Below are positions 3,818 to 11,938 of a stretch of DNA of 34,225 nt, in pieces. The notes below the pieces were generated by a model. The model was not told the origin of the DNA, did no database searches, and worked only from the letters and a program-made list of their open reading frames with translations. This DNA comes from Dehalococcoidia bacterium (GTDB lineage Bacteria > Chloroflexota > Dehalococcoidia > Lucifugimonadales > UBA3495): assembly GCA_002724585.1 (NCBI GenBank), contig PBPE01000032.1, forward strand, positions 8,071 to 42,295, read 5' to 3'. Position numbers and translations under genes: made by a program. Position 1 is the first letter of the stretch. Each line of letters begins with the position of its first letter.

Positions 3818-4306
3818 TTATTCGTAGGAGCGCATTGCTCTACGTGCGGCCATATCCATTTCTCTATTCATTATAGATCGGCGTTTGTCGTATTGGCGTT
3901 TACCTCTCCCAACACCTAACTGAACCTTTGCAACCCTGTTTCTGATGTAAAGACTGAGTGCGACAACTGTGAGGCCTTTTTGTGAAACAAAAGACTGTAT
4001 TTCAGTAATTTGATTGCGGTGAAGTAGTAATTTTCGCGGTCGTCTCGGATCATGGTTGTAGATGCTACCCGAATCATATAGAGCTATATGGGCATTAACT
4101 AGCCATAGTTCTCCACTTTCTGGCCGGGCGTATGCATCTCTTAAATCAACTTTTCCTGCACGAATAGATTTTATTTCTGTGCCTGTTAGGACTAATCCCG
4201 ATTCAAATTTTTCTAAGATTTCATAGTTGAATAATGCACGCCTATTTAGGGCGATCGTGCGACCGTCGTTGTTCGAATTTGCAGCCCTTTTCTTGGGTTT
4301 AGCCAA
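3818..4306 (-). CDS. smpB: SmpB, tmRNA-binding protein for trans-translation
   Basis: A 162-residue SmpB, the small basic protein that binds tmRNA and brings it to stalled ribosomes. Diagnostic blocks are NRRALFNYEILEKFESGLVL, TGTEIKSIRAGKVDLRDAYA, the NAHIALY strand, the YNHDPRRPRKLLLH block and the C-terminal GRGKRQYDKR tail, which enters the mRNA channel. Length is normal. It uses TTG at 4304-4306. Its first 8 bases overlap the end of the upstream protease gene (4299-4306), so translation is probably coupled. No tmRNA gene (ssrA) is recognisable nearby. Confidence 0.97.
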   Translation of the reverse strand: MAKPKKRAANSNNDGRTIALNRRALFNYEILEKFESGLVLTGTEIKSIRAGKVDLRDAYARPESGELWLVNAHIALYDSGSIYNHDPRRPRKLLLHRNQITEIQSFVSQKGLTVVALSLYIRNRVAKVQLGVGRGKRQYDKRRSIMNREMDMAARRAMRSYE

Positions 4307-5489
4307 AATTCGTGCGCTTCTGATTTAGTATTTCTAATGCTTTTTCCATTTGTACATCACTTACAGAATCGGTCGGAATGTCCACAACTATATCTGGTTC
4401 TATTCCCGCTCCTTCAATTAGGGTGCCGTTAGGCGTGAACCAATGTGCTACTGTGAAGTATATACCTGAACCGTCACTCAATGATCGCAGTATATTAACA
4501 CTGCCTTTACCGAAAGATTTGGTACCGATTATTGTCGCTCTTTGATGATCCATCAACGCTCCGCAGAAAACTTCACTCGCGCTCGCACTAAATTGGTTTA
4601 TGAGGACCACCATAGGATAGTTGTGATGATTGCCTGTGCGTCGTGAGGGCCAATCCTTTCTTGCTCCAGACCCATCAATTTCGTAAAGAACAAGACCTTC
4701 ATTAATGAACAGGCTTGTCACGTCTACTACTGAATTTAGTAAGCCTCCCGGATTGTTTCTTAGGTCAAGTACTAGTGCCCCTGATGTGGTTGATTCTTCG
4801 AATTCTTTGAGGGCTATCTCTACTTCAGATTTGGTATTTTCTGTAAAATTAGATATGTAGATATAGCCTATGTCGTTGGGCATGAGTTGAAAACTAACAC
4901 TGTCTATTTGTATTACGCCACGCCTGACGGTTATTGTTACTGGAGTAGCCTCATTCACATGTAGTATTAACAGATCTACTGTTGTACCTTTTTCTCCGCG
5001 TATCTTGGTTACAGCTTCAAGAAGTGTAGTATCTGCGGTGCTATCACCATTGATTCCCAATATGATATCACCGGATCGTATGCCGGCTTTTTCCGCTGGG
5101 GAATCTGGCATAGGGGCAATTATGGTTATTTTCTCATCTCTTATCCCTACGTGCGCTCCGATTCCTTCGAAAGAACCATGTACATCTTGTGATTCCATTG
5201 AGAATTGTTCGGCATCGAGAAATGAAGCGTATGGATCGTCTAACGATTCCAGCATGCCTCTTATTGCTGCCTCACTGATCTTATCCGAGTTTAGATTGTT
5301 TCGATTGATGTGCTGTTCTTCTAACAGTTTCCACACTTCTTCAACTCGTTCAAAACCACCAGATGATGATTGATTCGAGGCGGGTTGGTTTTGTATTCTA
5401 GGTTCGAAGGCACAAGCTAATGAGAGAAGCGCTACTAGCGTAGTGCAAGCTACAGCAGATAGAAGTGGTAGTTTCTTGATTTGGATCAA
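4299..5489 (-). CDS. S41 carboxyl-terminal processing protease (CtpA/Tsp-like)
   Basis: A 396-residue S41 serine protease, exported and acting outside the membrane. Residues 8-27 form a hydrophobic signal; Cys26 in SLACAF could be lipidated, although the lipobox is imperfect. A PDZ domain spans about 105-190 (GIGAHVG, PAEKAGIRSGDIILGING). The catalytic core follows: LDLRNNPGG (241-249), Ser305 in SASASE, and the base Lys328 in SFGKGSVN. It ends with the usual PNGTLIEGAGIEPDI block. Start is TTG at 5487-5489. It leads a leftward pair with smpB, whose start overlaps its stop. Likely role: periplasmic or cell-surface protein processing; the substrate is unknown. Confidence 0.93.
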   Translation of the reverse strand: MIQIKKLPLLSAVACTTLVALLSLACAFEPRIQNQPASNQSSSGGFERVEEVWKLLEEQHINRNNLNSDKISEAAIRGMLESLDDPYASFLDAEQFSMESQDVHGSFEGIGAHVGIRDEKITIIAPMPDSPAEKAGIRSGDIILGINGDSTADTTLLEAVTKIRGEKGTTVDLLILHVNEATPVTITVRRGVIQIDSVSFQLMPNDIGYIYISNFTENTKSEVEIALKEFEESTTSGALVLDLRNNPGGLLNSVVDVTSLFINEGLVLYEIDGSGARKDWPSRRTGNHHNYPMVVLINQFSASASEVFCGALMDHQRATIIGTKSFGKGSVNILRSLSDGSGIYFTVAHWFTPNGTLIEGAGIEPDIVVDIPTDSVSDVQMEKALEILNQKRTNFG

Positions 5490-5581: not shown

Positions 5582-5611
5582 TTGACATAGTTTAGATATG
5601 CTTGATAGCAT
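5582..5611 (+). promoter_or_regulatory. Sigma-70-type promoter for the synthase-thiolase-MFS operon
   Basis: A perfect TTGACA (5582-5587) is followed after 18 bases by TAGCAT (5606-5611, 4 of 6). Transcription would start near 5618, giving a leader of about 20 bases before the TTG start at 5639. It sits in the 149-base divergent gap between ctpA and the synthase-like gene. Confidence 0.5.
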
Positions 5612-5638: not shown

Positions 5639-7063
5639 TTGGTAGGGATAATAAACTTTGGTGCATATATACCAAAATATAGATTAGGAGCCGATACAAT
5701 CGGTTGGCATTCTAATCAAGAACGGTCTGTAGCAAATTTTGATGAAGATACCGTCACTATGGCTGTCGCTGCGGGTTATGAATGTATCAAAGGGTTTGAC
5801 CGAGGGCAAATCGATGGCCTGATATTCGCTAGTACCACCCCGCCCTACTCAGAAAAACAGTGTGCTGCTATTGTGGCAGAGGCTTTAGACCTGAATGAAA
5901 ATTTGTTTACTTCAGATGTAACTGATGTTTTGAAATGCGGGACCACTGCCCTGCGGTCAGCATTTGACGCGATTTCTGCTGGTTCGTGCGGTTTAATGCT
6001 AGTGATAATTTCCGATAGTAGACAAGGTCCTCCTAGGAGCGAAACGGAGCGTAATTCTGGAGACGGCGCAGTTGGGTTCTTGCTCGGATCTCATAACGTG
6101 ATCGCAGAATATGAAGGGTTTTATTCTGTTACCAAAAATCTACTTGATAATTGGCGATCCAATGGTGACCCTTTCGTGAGGACTTGGGAAGATAGATTTG
6201 CTATTGAAGAGGGGCTTGAAAATGTTCTCAATGACGCTACATCAGCTTATTTATTGAAATACAATATGAAACCGTCTGATTTTGCAAGAGTGGCTTTGTA
6301 CGCGCCAGATGGGCGGCGTCACACATCTCTAGCTAAAGGTATGGGGTTTGATGATAATCAAATAGAGCCGCCTTTGTTTGGGTTCCTTGGGAACATCGGA
6401 GCAGCTTTTGCTCCGATGTTATTGGCTAAAGCTTTGGAATCACGGGTTGAAGGAGAACGACTCCTAGTCGCTTCTTATGGCGATGGTAGTGATATCCTCG
6501 GTTTTAAGATGACCCAAGATACTAAACTATCTCGAGACCTGCTCGGAGTAACAGGCTATTTGGAATCAAAGGAGATTTTGGAATCTTACGAGACATACGC
6601 TAAATGGCGGTCAGTGTGGGATGTAGATGACGGTTCAAGGCGGCCAGACCCTCAATCGCCATCAGCAATAGCCTTATGGAGAGAGTCCGATAAGAATATT
6701 AAATTATATGGTAGCAAATGTAATAGTTGCGGGTATATCCAATATCCTATGCAATCCATTTGCGTAAACTGTCAAAGCAGAGATGACTATTTATCTGTCC
6801 GATTTAGTGATCAGCAAGGGAATATCTTTACATATTCTATGGATTATATTGCCGGTAGTGTTGATGTCCCATTGGTTATCACTGTGGTTAACTTCGATGA
6901 TGGGGGGCGTATTCTGTGTATGATGACTGATAGAGAGATCGGCAAAGTTCATATCGGCATGCGAGTACAGATGAGTTTCCGTAAACTTCGAGTGGTCAAT
7001 GGAATACATAATTATTATTGGAAATCGATACCAATAAGGGGTGTTGCTAATGCGGGGAATTAA
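5639..7063 (+). CDS. HMG-CoA-synthase-like condensing enzyme fused to a DUF35 (Zn-ribbon/OB) domain
   Basis: A 474-residue, two-part protein. Residues 1-about 300 are a thiolase-superfamily synthase related to archaeal HMG-CoA synthase. Cys100 (LKCGTTA), His228 (RRHTSLAKG) and Asn252 (GNIGAAFAPM) form the expected catalytic triad. By alignment from memory, the synthase's catalytic Glu (in the family's SES-HPYAVKP block) is Thr66 here (STTPPYSEKQ), so true HMG-CoA synthesis is doubtful. Residues about 345-470 are a DUF35 module: a zinc ribbon with Cys361, Cys364, Cys375 and Cys378, then an OB-fold. In archaea DUF35 is a separate scaffold that bridges thiolase and synthase. The start is TTG at 5639, with GAGGACGG upstream; no in-frame ATG fits better. 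The 3' end overlaps the thiolase gene by 14 bases. The product is unknown. Confidence 0.85.
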   Translation: MVGIINFGAYIPKYRLGADTIGWHSNQERSVANFDEDTVTMAVAAGYECIKGFDRGQIDGLIFASTTPPYSEKQCAAIVAEALDLNENLFTSDVTDVLKCGTTALRSAFDAISAGSCGLMLVIISDSRQGPPRSETERNSGDGAVGFLLGSHNVIAEYEGFYSVTKNLLDNWRSNGDPFVRTWEDRFAIEEGLENVLNDATSAYLLKYNMKPSDFARVALYAPDGRRHTSLAKGMGFDDNQIEPPLFGFLGNIGAAFAPMLLAKALESRVEGERLLVASYGDGSDILGFKMTQDTKLSRDLLGVTGYLESKEILESYETYAKWRSVWDVDDGSRRPDPQSPSAIALWRESDKNIKLYGSKCNSCGYIQYPMQSICVNCQSRDDYLSVRFSDQQGNIFTYSMDYIAGSVDVPLVITVVNFDDGGRILCMMTDREIGKVHIGMRVQMSFRKLRVVNGIHNYYWKSIPIRGVANAGN

Positions 7064-8222
7064 GGATAGGGTTGCAATAGTAGGCATGGGGTGTAGTAAT
7101 TTTGGGGAACGCTGGGAGTCAAGCGCTGCAGATTTGATGGTAGAAGCCGGATATGAAGCGTATGCTGATGCTGGGTTGGAGGCTAAAGATATCCAAGCTG
7201 CATGGCTTGGAACGGTGAGTTCTTTTAGAACAGGACAACCATTGGCAGAGGCCCTCAAATTAGACTACATTCCTATTACAAGGGTTGAGAACGCATGTGC
7301 AACAGCCACTGACGCATTTCGGAACGCTTGTTATGCCGTTGCTGCCGGAATATATGACATCGTATTAGCTGTTGGGGTGGAAAAACTGAAGGATTCAGGA
7401 TTCTCTGGACTAGCTATACCTGAAGCTCCTGGTGCTGATGTTGCCCCACCTACACCTCCGCCATCCCAGTTTGCGATGGCGGCAACTCGTTACTTCCATC
7501 AATATGACATACCCTATGATAAAGGCAAGCTGACTCTGGCCGAAATTGCAACTAAAAATCATCATAACGGGACTCTTAATCCGAAAGCTCATTTCCAACG
7601 TGAAATAACTACAGATCAGGTTGTTAACGCTCCTATGATTGCGTGGCCCCTGGGTTTATTCGATTGTTGCGGCGTTAGTGACGGAGCTGCTGCAGCAATA
7701 ATTACTACACCAGAAATAGCCAAAGGGTTAAGGAAGGATTACGTATTAGTTAAAGGACTAGGCTTATCGGTGGGGGCATTCGGAGTTCTACGTGATGACT
7801 GGGACTTTACGCATTTCCCTGAGACTGTTAAGGCTAGTCAGGCTGCATACGAAGAGTCAGGTATATTGAATCCTAGGCAAGACATAGATCTAGCTATGGT
7901 GCACGATTGTTTTACCATCACCGAGTTGATTATTTACGAGGATCTAGGCTTTAGCGGTAGAGGTAAAGCATCAGATGATGTGCACTCAGGCAGTTTTACG
8001 CTGGAGGGTGATCTACCGGTTAATACTGACGGGGGGCTTAAGTGTTTTGGTCATCCTGTTGGAGCTAGCGGTATTCGCATGATTTATGAGGTGTACAAGC
8101 AATTGCAGGGAAAGGCAGAAGGTAGGCAACTTAAGAAAGCTGATGTGGGATTAACCCATAACTTAGGCGGAAGGCCCGGTTCATTCACTTGTTCAGTAGC
8201 TATTTTTGGATCTGCTGAATGA
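7050..8222 (+). CDS. SCP-x-type thiolase (acetyl-CoA acetyltransferase-like)
   Basis: A 390-residue thiolase of the SCP-x/archaeal type, which forms or cleaves 3-ketoacyl-CoA. The nucleophile Cys lies in ENACATATDAF, a second block HDCFTITELI is characteristic of SCP-x members, and the catalytic His is in KCFGHPVGASG. The end (HNLGGRPGSFTCSV) lacks the classic thiolase CxG loop, as expected for this branch. I place the start at ATG 7050, 8 bases after AAGGGG; GTG 7041 is an in-frame alternative. It overlaps the synthase/DUF35 gene by 14 bases, which implies coupled translation and a shared complex. In archaea the matching trio makes HMG-CoA from acetyl-CoA, but the partner here seems altered, so the substrate is uncertain. 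Confidence 0.88.
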   Translation: MRGIKDRVAIVGMGCSNFGERWESSAADLMVEAGYEAYADAGLEAKDIQAAWLGTVSSFRTGQPLAEALKLDYIPITRVENACATATDAFRNACYAVAAGIYDIVLAVGVEKLKDSGFSGLAIPEAPGADVAPPTPPPSQFAMAATRYFHQYDIPYDKGKLTLAEIATKNHHNGTLNPKAHFQREITTDQVVNAPMIAWPLGLFDCCGVSDGAAAAIITTPEIAKGLRKDYVLVKGLGLSVGAFGVLRDDWDFTHFPETVKASQAAYEESGILNPRQDIDLAMVHDCFTITELIIYEDLGFSGRGKASDDVHSGSFTLEGDLPVNTDGGLKCFGHPVGASGIRMIYEVYKQLQGKAEGRQLKKADVGLTHNLGGRPGSFTCSVAIFGSAE

Positions 8223-8258
8223 GGATAACGAAACATTCGAAAGTTGGGGAGTGCACTA

Positions 8259-9521
8259 GTGGGTAACTTTCTACAGACTATATCGAGCCGGTTTTTAATT
8301 GCATTACAGTATCAAGACTACAGGACCCTGTGGACAGCTAACCTATTGGCAGGTGCTTCGGCGTGGGCCTTAATCGTTGCCCGAGCAGTTCTAGCATTTG
8401 AAATCACTGGTTATTATTCTTGGGCAGGATTGGTAGTATTTGCTGCGATGATCCCAAGATTAGTAGCCACTCCTTTGATTGGATTTATAGCTGACAGATT
8501 TGATAGGCAAACGGTTTTGTCTTGGACGTATGCGCTAAATCTCCTACATAATGTTGCCTTGGCCATTCTCGTTATGACGAGCCTAATAGGGCCAATTTTG
8601 TTAGTATTACTCGCTTTCTTTAATGGAACTCTCCGTGCTTCTCAGATGACCGCGACGCAGTCTTTAGTCCCAAACTTAGTACCCAAAGAGCATTTATTGA
8701 ACGCTGTTGCTTTGAACCAGGCAACTCAACAAGGATCTAGAGCAGTTGGTCCCTTAGCGATTACTCCAGTCGTTCTTTATGTAGGCCTAGACTGGGCCTT
8801 TTGGGTTTGTGCTTTGTTTTATTTGGTAGGACTCATCCAGACTATGCGAATAAAGACTAGGTCTAGTGGAGATGTAGATAAACGAAAGAGTGTAGGAAGA
8901 AACATATTTGATGGTTTTTCTTATGTCTATACGACTCCTATCGTCCTAGCGATGATAATGTTCGCGGTGTTTCATTGCACTCTTACTATGTCTTACGAAT
9001 CACTCTTGCCGGCTATGTCTGAAATAATGAGTAAAACTGGTAATCCTAATCATGCGGTTTTGTTGATGTCAGGCATAGGCGTCGGAGCCTTGATATCATC
9101 GATACTTCTGGCAGGCGTTAAGACAGACGCCGTTAGAGGGCGAGTTTTCTTGTTTGTTGGGTTAACCAGTGGCCTTACATATATAGCCTTAGGTTTATCT
9201 TCTATGATGGAGATGGCTTTGTTATTTGCTGTCTTATTGGGGGCAAGTACTGCTGGTTTTATGACAGTTACTCATACAGTAATACAAGCTGTTGTTCCGG
9301 ATGGTGTTCGAGGTAGAGTCTCTGGAATATACAGCATGCATGTGGGTGGGAGTATGGCTTTCGCTAATCTACTCAATGGTATATTGGCTGATGTCTTTAA
9401 TGCACCACTAGTAATGACCATAACAGGTATCGCATTTCTCATACTATCCATTGTAAGCATAATTTATAAACCTGTGAGGTCTCTCTACTTTCCACGAATC
9501 TTCAATAGTGAACTCACGTAG
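8259..9521 (+). CDS. MFS transporter, EntS/MFS_3-like exporter
   Basis: A 420-residue membrane protein with about 12 hydrophobic segments. It opens with the cytosolic lead ALQYQDYRTLWTANLLAG typical of the MFS_3 (enterobactin exporter EntS-like) branch, and carries the loop 2-3 signature as GFIADRFDRQTVLSW. The loop NLVPKEHLLNAVALNQ is also typical, and the second half repeats the pattern with VPDGVRGRVSGIY. GTG at 8259 is chosen because GGGGAG lies 7 bases upstream; TTG at 8244 would overlap that ribosome site. It follows the thiolase gene by 36 bases and is probably in the same operon, so it may export that pathway's product. The cargo cannot be predicted. Confidence 0.87.
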   Translation: MGNFLQTISSRFLIALQYQDYRTLWTANLLAGASAWALIVARAVLAFEITGYYSWAGLVVFAAMIPRLVATPLIGFIADRFDRQTVLSWTYALNLLHNVALAILVMTSLIGPILLVLLAFFNGTLRASQMTATQSLVPNLVPKEHLLNAVALNQATQQGSRAVGPLAITPVVLYVGLDWAFWVCALFYLVGLIQTMRIKTRSSGDVDKRKSVGRNIFDGFSYVYTTPIVLAMIMFAVFHCTLTMSYESLLPAMSEIMSKTGNPNHAVLLMSGIGVGALISSILLAGVKTDAVRGRVFLFVGLTSGLTYIALGLSSMMEMALLFAVLLGASTAGFMTVTHTVIQAVVPDGVRGRVSGIYSMHVGGSMAFANLLNGILADVFNAPLVMTITGIAFLILSIVSIIYKPVRSLYFPRIFNSELT

Positions 9522-9785: not shown

Positions 9786-10850
9786 ATGCTCGAAACGAGT
9801 CTGATTAAAGTTATTGGCAGAGGGAGTACGGTTAATGTTTCAATAGACGATATTGAAGATATTTCTGTCGTATGCCAGCATTTGAATGATCATTTAGCGA
9901 CCAATCGATTCATGTATTCTACTGGGATTATCAATGTCGATGTGGGGCGTAGAATTTTGGTTAAGGAAGAACTGCACAAAATAAAGGAAATTATCGAATC
10001 GGAGTCTAATGTTACAGTATCGAGATTCTGGTGTGATCCTTCCACGTTATCTGACGCATTATCGGAAACTAATGGATTTGGAGTAGACCTCGCTGATCCT
10101 TCAAAAAAATGGCAATCTCAGCAGCCCATTGTAATTCAACATAATGATCCAGCAACTTATGTAGATCCTGATAGTTGTATAGAACAAGACGTCATTGATC
10201 TAGATGAGCATTTGTCGGATGGGGGTGGCATTTCCGAAACAATAGCTCCCGAGACGCCTGAATATTTGAATGGATTGATCAAAGCTACAGGCCATTCTGA
10301 CGAAGATCTGCATTATGACACTGAATATGCATCTTCAGCTATTTCAGAAATTACCGGCGCGGATGAGGATACTTTATTAGATGATCTTGTCGGTTTTCCT
10401 GTCAGAAATGAATCTGCCTCCCTTGACGTTAAGTCACCCAAAACCGAAGAACTGATAGACGCCTACCGAAGGAACGAGGCACTGTTTATAAAGACGACTT
10501 GTCGGTCCGGAGAGGTGATCAAGTACCCAGGAGATATAGTCGTACTGGCGGATGTAAACCCTGGTGCTCAACTAGTTGCTGACGGCGACATAATTATCTT
10601 TGGAAACCTTAGAGGGTTTGCTCACGCAGGTGCTAGTGGAGATACACAATCAGTAATAGTAGCATCTAATCTGAATGCTCACAGATTGCAAATTAGTGAG
10701 TGCACTGGAGTTTCACCTGAGAAATCAAATCGCAGTAAATCAAAAGGAAGTAAACCTAGGATAGCTTTCATTCGGCGTAATTCGATATATGTTGCGGCGT
10801 ACACTGGAAGGTTTGCTGGGTACACTGGAGGGGTATTGTATGAAGGGTAG
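9786..10850 (+). CDS. minC: MinC, division septum inhibitor, with a long acidic linker
   Basis: A 354-residue MinC, well above the usual 220-270. MinC blocks FtsZ assembly away from mid-cell and is recruited to the membrane by MinD. Residues 1-about 82 match the MinC N-domain (a DHLATNRFMYSTG block, then NVDVGRRILVKEELHKIKEI). Residues about 232-342 are the beta-helical C-domain: TTCRSGEVIKYPGDIVVLAD, VNPGAQLVADGDIIIFGNLR, GFAHAGASGD, then the TGVSPEK and RIAFIRRNSIYV tail. Between them lie about 140 residues rich in Asp, Glu and Ser with no recognisable fold, which accounts for the extra length. The ATG at 9786 lacks a strong ribosome site. The 3' end overlaps minD by 11 bases. Confidence 0.93.
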   Translation: MLETSLIKVIGRGSTVNVSIDDIEDISVVCQHLNDHLATNRFMYSTGIINVDVGRRILVKEELHKIKEIIESESNVTVSRFWCDPSTLSDALSETNGFGVDLADPSKKWQSQQPIVIQHNDPATYVDPDSCIEQDVIDLDEHLSDGGGISETIAPETPEYLNGLIKATGHSDEDLHYDTEYASSAISEITGADEDTLLDDLVGFPVRNESASLDVKSPKTEELIDAYRRNEALFIKTTCRSGEVIKYPGDIVVLADVNPGAQLVADGDIIIFGNLRGFAHAGASGDTQSVIVASNLNAHRLQISECTGVSPEKSNRSKSKGSKPRIAFIRRNSIYVAAYTGRFAGYTGGVLYEG

Positions 10851-11658
10851 GACCATAGTCATCACATCAGGAAAAGGCGGGGTGGGCAAAACCACTACGA
10901 CGGCCAATATTGGTACTGGATTAGCCATGCGAGGCCATAGAGTGGTTGTTATTGATACTGATATTGGGTTGCGGAACCTGGATGTTGTTATGGGACTGGA
11001 GAATCGTATTGTATACGATCTAGTTGACATAATCGAGGGCAGCTGCAAGATGCATCAAGGTATGATCAAAGATAAAAACAATCAGGATTTATATTTGATA
11101 CCAGCTGCTCAAACTCGCGATAAAAACTGTATCACCGAAGAACAAGTTAAGGAACTGTGCAGCAAGCTTGAGAGTGAATTTGACTACGTGTTAATTGACT
11201 GCCCTGCGGGGATAGAACAAGGATTTAAAAATGCTATTGCTGCAGCAGAGGAGGCAATTATTGTAACAACCCCGGAAGTTTCAGCTATACGCGATGCGGA
11301 CAGAGTAATTGGCTTGCTTGCAGCTGCGGAAATTCACAATCCTAAGCTGATAATTAACCGAATTAGACCAGGAATGGTTAAGCGCGGTGAGATGATGGAC
11401 AAAGATGACATCGTCGATTTGTTGGCTGTTGAAGTTCTTGGGATGGTTCCCGCTGATGATAGATTAATAACTGCGACTAATCAGGGTGTACCTGTAATAC
11501 ATGATAAACGGGCCGTTTCTGGTGCCGCTTTTTCGCGTATAACCGCCAGAATAGACGGGGATGATGTTCCATTGATGGATCTAGACCCTAAAACAGGTAT
11601 CATGGGGAAAGTAAAAGAAATCATGGGAATGAATAGAGGTGCTTACTCACATGCGTGA
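10840..11658 (+). CDS. minD: MinD, ParA-like septum-site ATPase
   Basis: A 272-residue MinD, the ATP-dependent membrane-binding partner of MinC and MinE. The deviant Walker A is SGKGGVGKTT (residues 9-18), with the signature lysine. DTDIGLRNLDVVMGLENR is the MinD switch block, and VLIDCPAGIEQGF carries Walker B. The tail contains GIMGKVKEIMGM, suited to be the membrane-targeting amphipathic helix. The ATG at 10840 is preferred over upstream in-frame starts because the Walker A then sits at the normal distance. It lies inside the end of minC (11-base overlap), and its own end overlaps minE by 8 bases, so the three are translated as a coupled unit. Confidence 0.96.
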   Translation: MKGRTIVITSGKGGVGKTTTTANIGTGLAMRGHRVVVIDTDIGLRNLDVVMGLENRIVYDLVDIIEGSCKMHQGMIKDKNNQDLYLIPAAQTRDKNCITEEQVKELCSKLESEFDYVLIDCPAGIEQGFKNAIAAAEEAIIVTTPEVSAIRDADRVIGLLAAAEIHNPKLIINRIRPGMVKRGEMMDKDDIVDLLAVEVLGMVPADDRLITATNQGVPVIHDKRAVSGAAFSRITARIDGDDVPLMDLDPKTGIMGKVKEIMGMNRGAYSHA

Positions 11659-11938
11659 ATTAATAAAATGGGTAATTGCCAAGCGAGATCAAACTCGAAT
11701 AGTTGCTAGCAAAATTTCGGCTCGTGAACGACTTCAAATGGTTTTGATGAGAGATCGTATGGACGTGTCACCAGATATCATGGATGCTCTAAAAAATGAC
11801 ATGAAAGATGTCATGTCTCGTTATCTTGTAGTTGAAGATGATTTTCAGGAGTTCGCCATACACCGATCAGATGAATCAGTCTTCCTAGTCTCAAATATAT
11901 TGGTAAAAGAATTACCCAGAAACACAGCTACGACCTAG
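11651..11938 (+). CDS. minE: MinE, topological specificity factor
   Basis: A 95-residue MinE, which displaces MinC from MinD and stimulates MinD ATPase so that division stays at mid-cell. The N-terminal membrane/MinD-binding segment runs RELIKWVIAKRDQT. The family core is ISARERLQMVLMRDRMDVSP followed by DIMDALKNDMKDVMSRYLVV (about 22-62). The C-terminal beta segment binds the partner subunit. ATG at 11651 gives the normal MinE N-terminus and lies within the end of minD. A strong terminator begins 29 bases after the stop, so the operon ends here. Confidence 0.93.
   Translation: MRELIKWVIAKRDQTRIVASKISARERLQMVLMRDRMDVSPDIMDALKNDMKDVMSRYLVVEDDFQEFAIHRSDESVFLVSNILVKELPRNTATT

Follow-up and report, generated by a model that had tools for sequence, protein, structure and literature searches.

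The window analysed here, a 34,225-nucleotide stretch from a Dehalococcoidia bacterium (contig PBPE01000032.1, positions 8,071 to 42,295 of the forward strand), carries a gene pair in which a fusion of a hydroxymethylglutaryl-CoA (HMG-CoA) synthase-like domain and a DUF35 module is followed directly by a thiolase. A preliminary description of this DNA read the pair and the transporter gene behind it as three open reading frames with a 14-bp overlap between the first two and a 36-bp gap before the third, and the coordinates, overlap and gap are all as it gave them. The overlap follows from an ATG start of the thiolase at 7050, with an alternative GTG start possible at 7041; the gap follows from a GTG start of the transporter at 8259, with an alternative TTG start possible at 8244. 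The pair and its diagnostic residues are as follows, with counts taken from an alignment of 130 fused homologs (98 once near-copies were removed) and 129 thiolases.

5639..7063, plus strand: fusion gene, pseudo-HMG-CoA synthase (KASIII fold) plus DUF35, 474 aa, TTG start (Pfam, NCBIfam, AlphaFold, Foldseek)
5639..6616, plus strand: HMG-CoA synthase-like part, residues 1-326 (NCBIfam PRK04262; Foldseek 6et9_I, template modelling (TM) score 0.89)
5834..5836, plus strand: Thr66 replacing catalytic Glu82 (6ESQ numbering); T in 125, S in 4, A in 1 of 130, E in 0/130
5930..5932, plus strand: Leu98 replacing nucleophile Cys114; L in 118/130, Cys in 0/130 in this column
6185..6196, plus strand: WEDR motif, residues 183-186, a family signature; E184 and R186 in 130/130, not in 6ESQ or PhlA
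6299..6301, plus strand: Tyr221 replacing the catalytic His; Y in 102/130, H in only 6/130
6701..6982, plus strand: DUF35 module, zinc ribbon C361/C364/C375/C378 plus OB fold; all four Cys in 130/130
7050..8222, plus strand: thiolase of PRK06157 type, 390 aa, ATG start (NCBIfam)
7296..7298, plus strand: nucleophile Cys83 of the thiolase, 129/129
7902..7913, plus strand: HDCF motif of SCP2-thiolase type, residues 285-288; H, D and F in 129/129, C in 128/129
8052..8054, plus strand: catalytic His335 of the thiolase, in GHP, 129/129

Inspection of the fusion protein reveals a KASIII/HMG-CoA synthase-like domain (1-326), a linker, a zinc ribbon and an OB fold, in that order. Pfam places zf-ChsH2 at residues 355-382 and OB_ChsH2_C at 392-448, both above the gathering score, which is the Cys4 ribbon followed by an OB fold that defines DUF35 (PF12172 and PF01796); the ribbon has the CxxC-x10-CxxC spacing at 361-378 described for it earlier. 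The first domain scores 200.7 bits with the archaeal HMG-CoA synthase model PRK04262, under its 244-bit cut-off, and the fusion fails TIGR00748 as well (144 bits, cut-off 353). An AlphaFold model of the fusion (pLDDT 84.8, pTM 0.88) finds its best PDB fold matches by Foldseek in the synthase subunit of the archaeal thiolase/HMG-CoA synthase/DUF35 complex (6ET9/6ESQ; TM 0.88-0.89 by target), then in PhlA and MucABC. Together with the PRK04262 alignment, these matches bear out the relation to the archaeal complex that had been proposed. Sequence searches gave no solved chain spanning both modules of the fusion. About 130 full-length fused homologs were read, so that the fusion is not an assembly accident; nor is its architecture categorically new, since DUF35 fusions to thiolase-superfamily domains were noted generally in 2010 (PMC2954200).

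Alignment to 6ESQ, whose catalytic residues were taken from PMC6392133 and the alignments, indicates that the catalytic Cys, Glu and His of HMG-CoA synthase are all replaced in the fusion. An altered active site had been proposed for this one protein and turns out to be family-wide among the 130 homologs. A shifted nucleophile at Cys100, two residues past Leu98, was ruled out because the position is not conserved (A 97, S 18, G 11, C 4). Mean identity is 50% for the HMG-CoA synthase-like domain versus 52% for the DUF35 part, and the domain is thus under constraint rather than decaying. Judged from these residues, the synthase half of the fusion looks non-catalytic.

The thiolase presents the opposite picture, with the nucleophilic Cys, the GHP His and the HDCF motif all retained and a PRK06157 score of 571.5 bits against a cut-off of 403, as for an enzyme of the SCP2/archaeal type. 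The same cut-off is exceeded by the partners on a Novosphingobium plasmid and in ribosome-linked Dehalococcoidia. Of the two proteins, the thiolase is the better conserved in 111/111 pairs, with a mean identity to the window of 73% versus 53% for the fusion.

Comparison across genomes shows that fusion and thiolase form a real unit and a widespread bacterial gene pair. The thiolase lies within 300 bp downstream of the fusion on the same strand in 111 of the 124 loci with both genes, across several phyla, where the 124 are loci rather than independent genomes, some being one genome fetched twice. One scan of species genomes yielded 456 confirmed relatives, and named relatives at 59-63% identity are mainly Dehalococcoidia and SAR202 metagenome-assembled genomes. 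Within the family of the window, whose own genome is 71.7% complete, 25 of the 27 genomes with a completeness of 90% or more carry the fusion. Divergent ctp-smpB upstream and minC-minD-minE downstream surround the pair in most family genomes, and on the tree the window fusion groups with these ctp/min-linked orthologs (35-row set, support 100). This clade keeps the two genes as a fixed part of the chromosome.

Several individual loci depart from the common pattern. In L042 (G011), a family member, identity to the window is only about 40% for the fusion but 80% for the thiolase, a very fast divergence of the fusion alone. Loci L049, L050, L059 and L064 have 0.7-1.0 kb between the two genes, with small open reading frames there in L059, and in L043 (G041:C81) the fusion is broken near residues 190-215 into two reading frames, by pseudogenisation or assembly error. 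The record titled 'Acidobacteria bacterium' (L097, PBML01000033) has a fusion near-identical to that of the Dehalococcoidia locus G037/L057 and is probably mislabelled.

Several solved or described systems resemble the pair. The archaeal complex has the same three folds, an HDCF thiolase and the best fold match of the synthase half; its three folds, however, are separate chains with an active synthase (Cys114, Glu82), whereas in the window synthase and DUF35 form one chain lacking the catalytic residues, in a genome without a mevalonate pathway, unlike the archaeal setting. PhlABC and MucABC (PDB 5M3K, 9VBO) likewise combine an HMG-CoA synthase-like subunit without catalytic Cys and Glu, a DUF35 subunit and one active thiolase subunit; in PhlABC, PhlC is the sole catalytic subunit, and the same Cys and Glu are missing from PhlA (PMC6392133). 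As far as sequence can tell, the pair encodes this same set together, an apparently inactive synthase-like part, DUF35 and a putatively active thiolase. In contrast, the subunits of PhlABC and MucABC are separate chains, the PhlABC reaction is a CoA-independent C-acylation, and the window thiolase resembles the archaeal one (210 bits) much more than it does PhlC (96 bits). In BbsAB, ChsH1-ChsH2-Ltp2, Shy-Sal and IpfDE, a thiolase-fold enzyme is held by DUF35, often fused to another acyl-CoA domain, and ChsH2 also bears a non-catalytic fold (PMC11321319). The fused partner there is MaoC or none rather than HMG-CoA synthase-like, and two of these enzymes, Ltp2 and Sal, are aldolases, the latter without the thiolase nucleophile (PMC12329534).

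From these comparisons we favour, with moderate confidence, a reading in which the pair specifies a single heteromeric thiolase with a non-catalytic fusion subunit, most likely cleaving an unusual beta-ketoacyl-CoA. The thiolase would do all the chemistry, with Cys83 carrying the acyl group and His335 and the Cys and His of HDCF serving as acid-base groups. The DUF35 module of the fusion would dock onto the thiolase and help hold CoA, while the dead synthase fold, placed against the thiolase active site, would act as scaffold and substrate pocket in the manner of PhlA and PhlB for PhlC. The reaction would most likely run towards thiolysis, splitting a beta-ketoacyl-CoA that is bulky, branched or cyclic, in a route akin to beta-oxidation.

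Cleavage appears likelier than synthesis because many relatives sit in catabolic clusters of beta-oxidation type. Plasmids of Novosphingobium, Rhodococcus, Variovorax, Tistrella, Sphingobium and Azoarcus carry a fusion of this kind with a thiolase behind it that is annotated as acetyl-CoA acetyltransferase; genes for acyl-CoA dehydrogenases, hydratases, CoA transferases and ligases surround the two. Acyl-CoA dehydrogenase, crotonase, CaiB, MaoC or ligase genes lie near 28 of 132 rows, among them plasmids from Rhodococcus and Novosphingobium that degrade oil or pollutants. Pairs of an 'OB-fold domain-containing protein' and an 'acetyl-CoA acetyltransferase' in Pseudomonadota and Actinomycetota (including EGO55_13555/13550 in the edc cluster) share the domain order, thiolase family and gene order of the window; their fusions are 28-34% identical to it and are set in catabolic clusters, not beside min or ribosomal genes. 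The Novosphingobium ES2-1 cluster shares its gene order with the estrogen-degradation edc cluster, which suggests that the ES2-1 pair and the edc genes are the same. In N. tardaugens, the counterparts within the edc cluster are a thiolase and an 'HMG-CoA synthase' to which no step has been assigned, and deletion of the operon abolishes growth on estrogens (PMC7793797). A non-catalytic thiolase partner would offer a testable answer for this 'HMG-CoA synthase', whose role eluded the authors of PMC7793797.

Several points weigh against the favoured reading. Beta-oxidation genes do not flank the pair in the window's clade, where the neighbours are ctp, smpB and minCDE. The N. tardaugens deletion removes about nine genes and so is no test of this pair (PMC7793797), and the match between ES2-1 and edc genes is one of gene order only. 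Placement in ribosomal operons elsewhere, in turn, suggests that the pair is needed constitutively and in step with growth, as would suit a biosynthetic role no less than a catabolic one.

This placement concerns 13 Dehalococcoidia-type loci with ribosomal genes within 6 kb of the fusion (ribosome-linked loci L129, L135-L139, L148-L152 and L160, also L125; for example L151:3449-10307 and L137:1470-10233). Loci that were read completely have the order tuf, nusG, rplK, rplA, fusion, thiolase, rplJ and rplL, in some cases with a second thiolase and DUF35 between rplA and the fusion. Mapped on the tree, the ribosomal-placement label needs four changes, which may stand for repeated gain or for an ancestral state lost in some lineages. 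A literature search found no thiolases described in ribosomal operons and nothing on SAR202 thiolases, and we know of no description of the fusion-thiolase pair in a ribosomal neighbourhood. A second thiolase and DUF35 gene is also held by several of the ribosome-linked loci.

An unlikely but serious alternative is that the same complex works in the synthetic direction as a biosynthetic acyltransferase, by Claisen condensation or C-acylation as in PhlABC and MucABC, for a housekeeping or secondary metabolite. Those two are the closest solved complexes besides the archaeal one, and both are synthetic; nearly all of the window's family, moreover, has the pair, in a fixed position by cell-division genes, and in other Dehalococcoidia it lies among ribosomal genes. 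FabH (TIGR00747, E <= 1e-20) was not found in 58/59 SAR202-order genomes, the remaining one (G029) giving a partial match, which makes an unorthodox condensing enzyme conceivable. FabH is, however, equally missing in relatives of the order with and without the pair, so that a role as FabH replacement is not supported, and FabF is present in 58/59 of the genomes. None of the genes seen next to the pair was of polyketide or natural-product type, and the homologs elsewhere lie in catabolic clusters. As an observation of its own, SAR202-order genomes without FabH but with FabF raise the question of how fatty-acid synthesis is primed.

More speculative, and rather doubtful, is the idea that a growth-linked thiolase complex with a pseudo-HMG-CoA synthase scaffold performs an undescribed core acyl-CoA step in Dehalococcoidia. 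Such a step would be important enough for retention by cell-division genes and for entry, possibly repeated, into the rplKA-rplJL neighbourhood.

It is improbable that the synthase-like half has instead acquired a new active site, built for example on E184 and R186 of the WEDR motif, with which it would carry out a second step on the thiolase product. The invariance of both residues, the restriction of the motif to this family and the near-equal conservation of the two fusion parts all agree with such a retooled synthase; yet there is no conserved nucleophile at or near the old active site, where column 98 is never Cys and Cys100 occurs in 4/130, and the invariant residues could equally serve an interface or CoA binding. 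The proposal in the preliminary description that the complex was retooled for a new product overreaches, given a synthase half that appears non-catalytic and the catabolic clusters in which many relatives are found, where cleavage is the likelier reaction.

That description further envisaged a three-gene pathway behind one promoter, with its product exported. The features concerned are these.

3818..5489, minus strand: smpB and ctp (S41 protease), conserved divergent neighbours outside the unit (Pfam, synteny)
5582..5611, plus strand: promoter-like site TTGACA-18-TAGCAT upstream of the pair, in the expected place
8259..9521, plus strand: MFS transporter, a neighbour judged outside the unit by synteny
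9786..11938, plus strand: minC, minD (both by Pfam) and a gene in minE position, conserved clade neighbours outside the unit

The promoter-like site is rightly placed, but such sites show no excess over shuffles in the region, and co-transcription is thus not established. The third protein is an MFS transporter. The EntS label was generous (102.5 bits with the EntS model, equivalog cut-off 324); the safe name is MFS_3 / H+ antiporter. The name minE comes from position and the shared gene cluster only.

A three-gene pathway exporting its product through this transporter is very improbable, despite the shared strand, the short gap and the lack of a terminator-like site within it. The transporter lies directly beside the thiolase in the window, and one other genome comes close to this arrangement (442 bp). 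Of about 40 family loci, 15 have a homolog on the same strand 0.4-3.4 kb downstream, mostly past the min genes. In G012 the pair is at 1.65 Mb and the ortholog at 1.93 Mb, 280 kb apart; orthologs also occur in genomes without the pair (G015, G021, G050, G051), and no MFS of this kind was seen near distant pairs. Because min genes usually intervene and the ortholog lies elsewhere in other genomes or occurs without the pair, neither the three-gene pathway nor an exported product is supported. That is to say, gene order in relatives conserves the fusion and the thiolase but not the transporter, and the two genes probably make up a thiolase complex of two proteins, not a pathway of three genes that includes an exporter.

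Least probable of all is an ordinary mevalonate module making HMG-CoA, an option the preliminary description rightly set aside: sequence and fold are nearest archaeal HMG-CoA synthase, but the catalytic Glu, Cys and His are replaced, and the searches exclude such a module because HMG-CoA reductase is absent (0/16 relatives, with a control that detects mevalonate organisms) and IspG of the methylerythritol phosphate pathway is present (16/16). A GHMP kinase search matched in all genomes without separating IspE from mevalonate kinase and was not used. The synthase parts of the family are annotated as HMG-CoA synthase or left unnamed, and recognising the fusion as a non-catalytic thiolase partner would remove a false mevalonate signal from metagenome annotation. 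A likely source of the misannotation is seen in at least one member, the pseudo-synthase at L137:6485-7888, which, although the family lacks the catalytic residues, passes the equivalog cut-off of PRK04262, 'hydroxymethylglutaryl-CoA synthase' (253 versus 244 bits).

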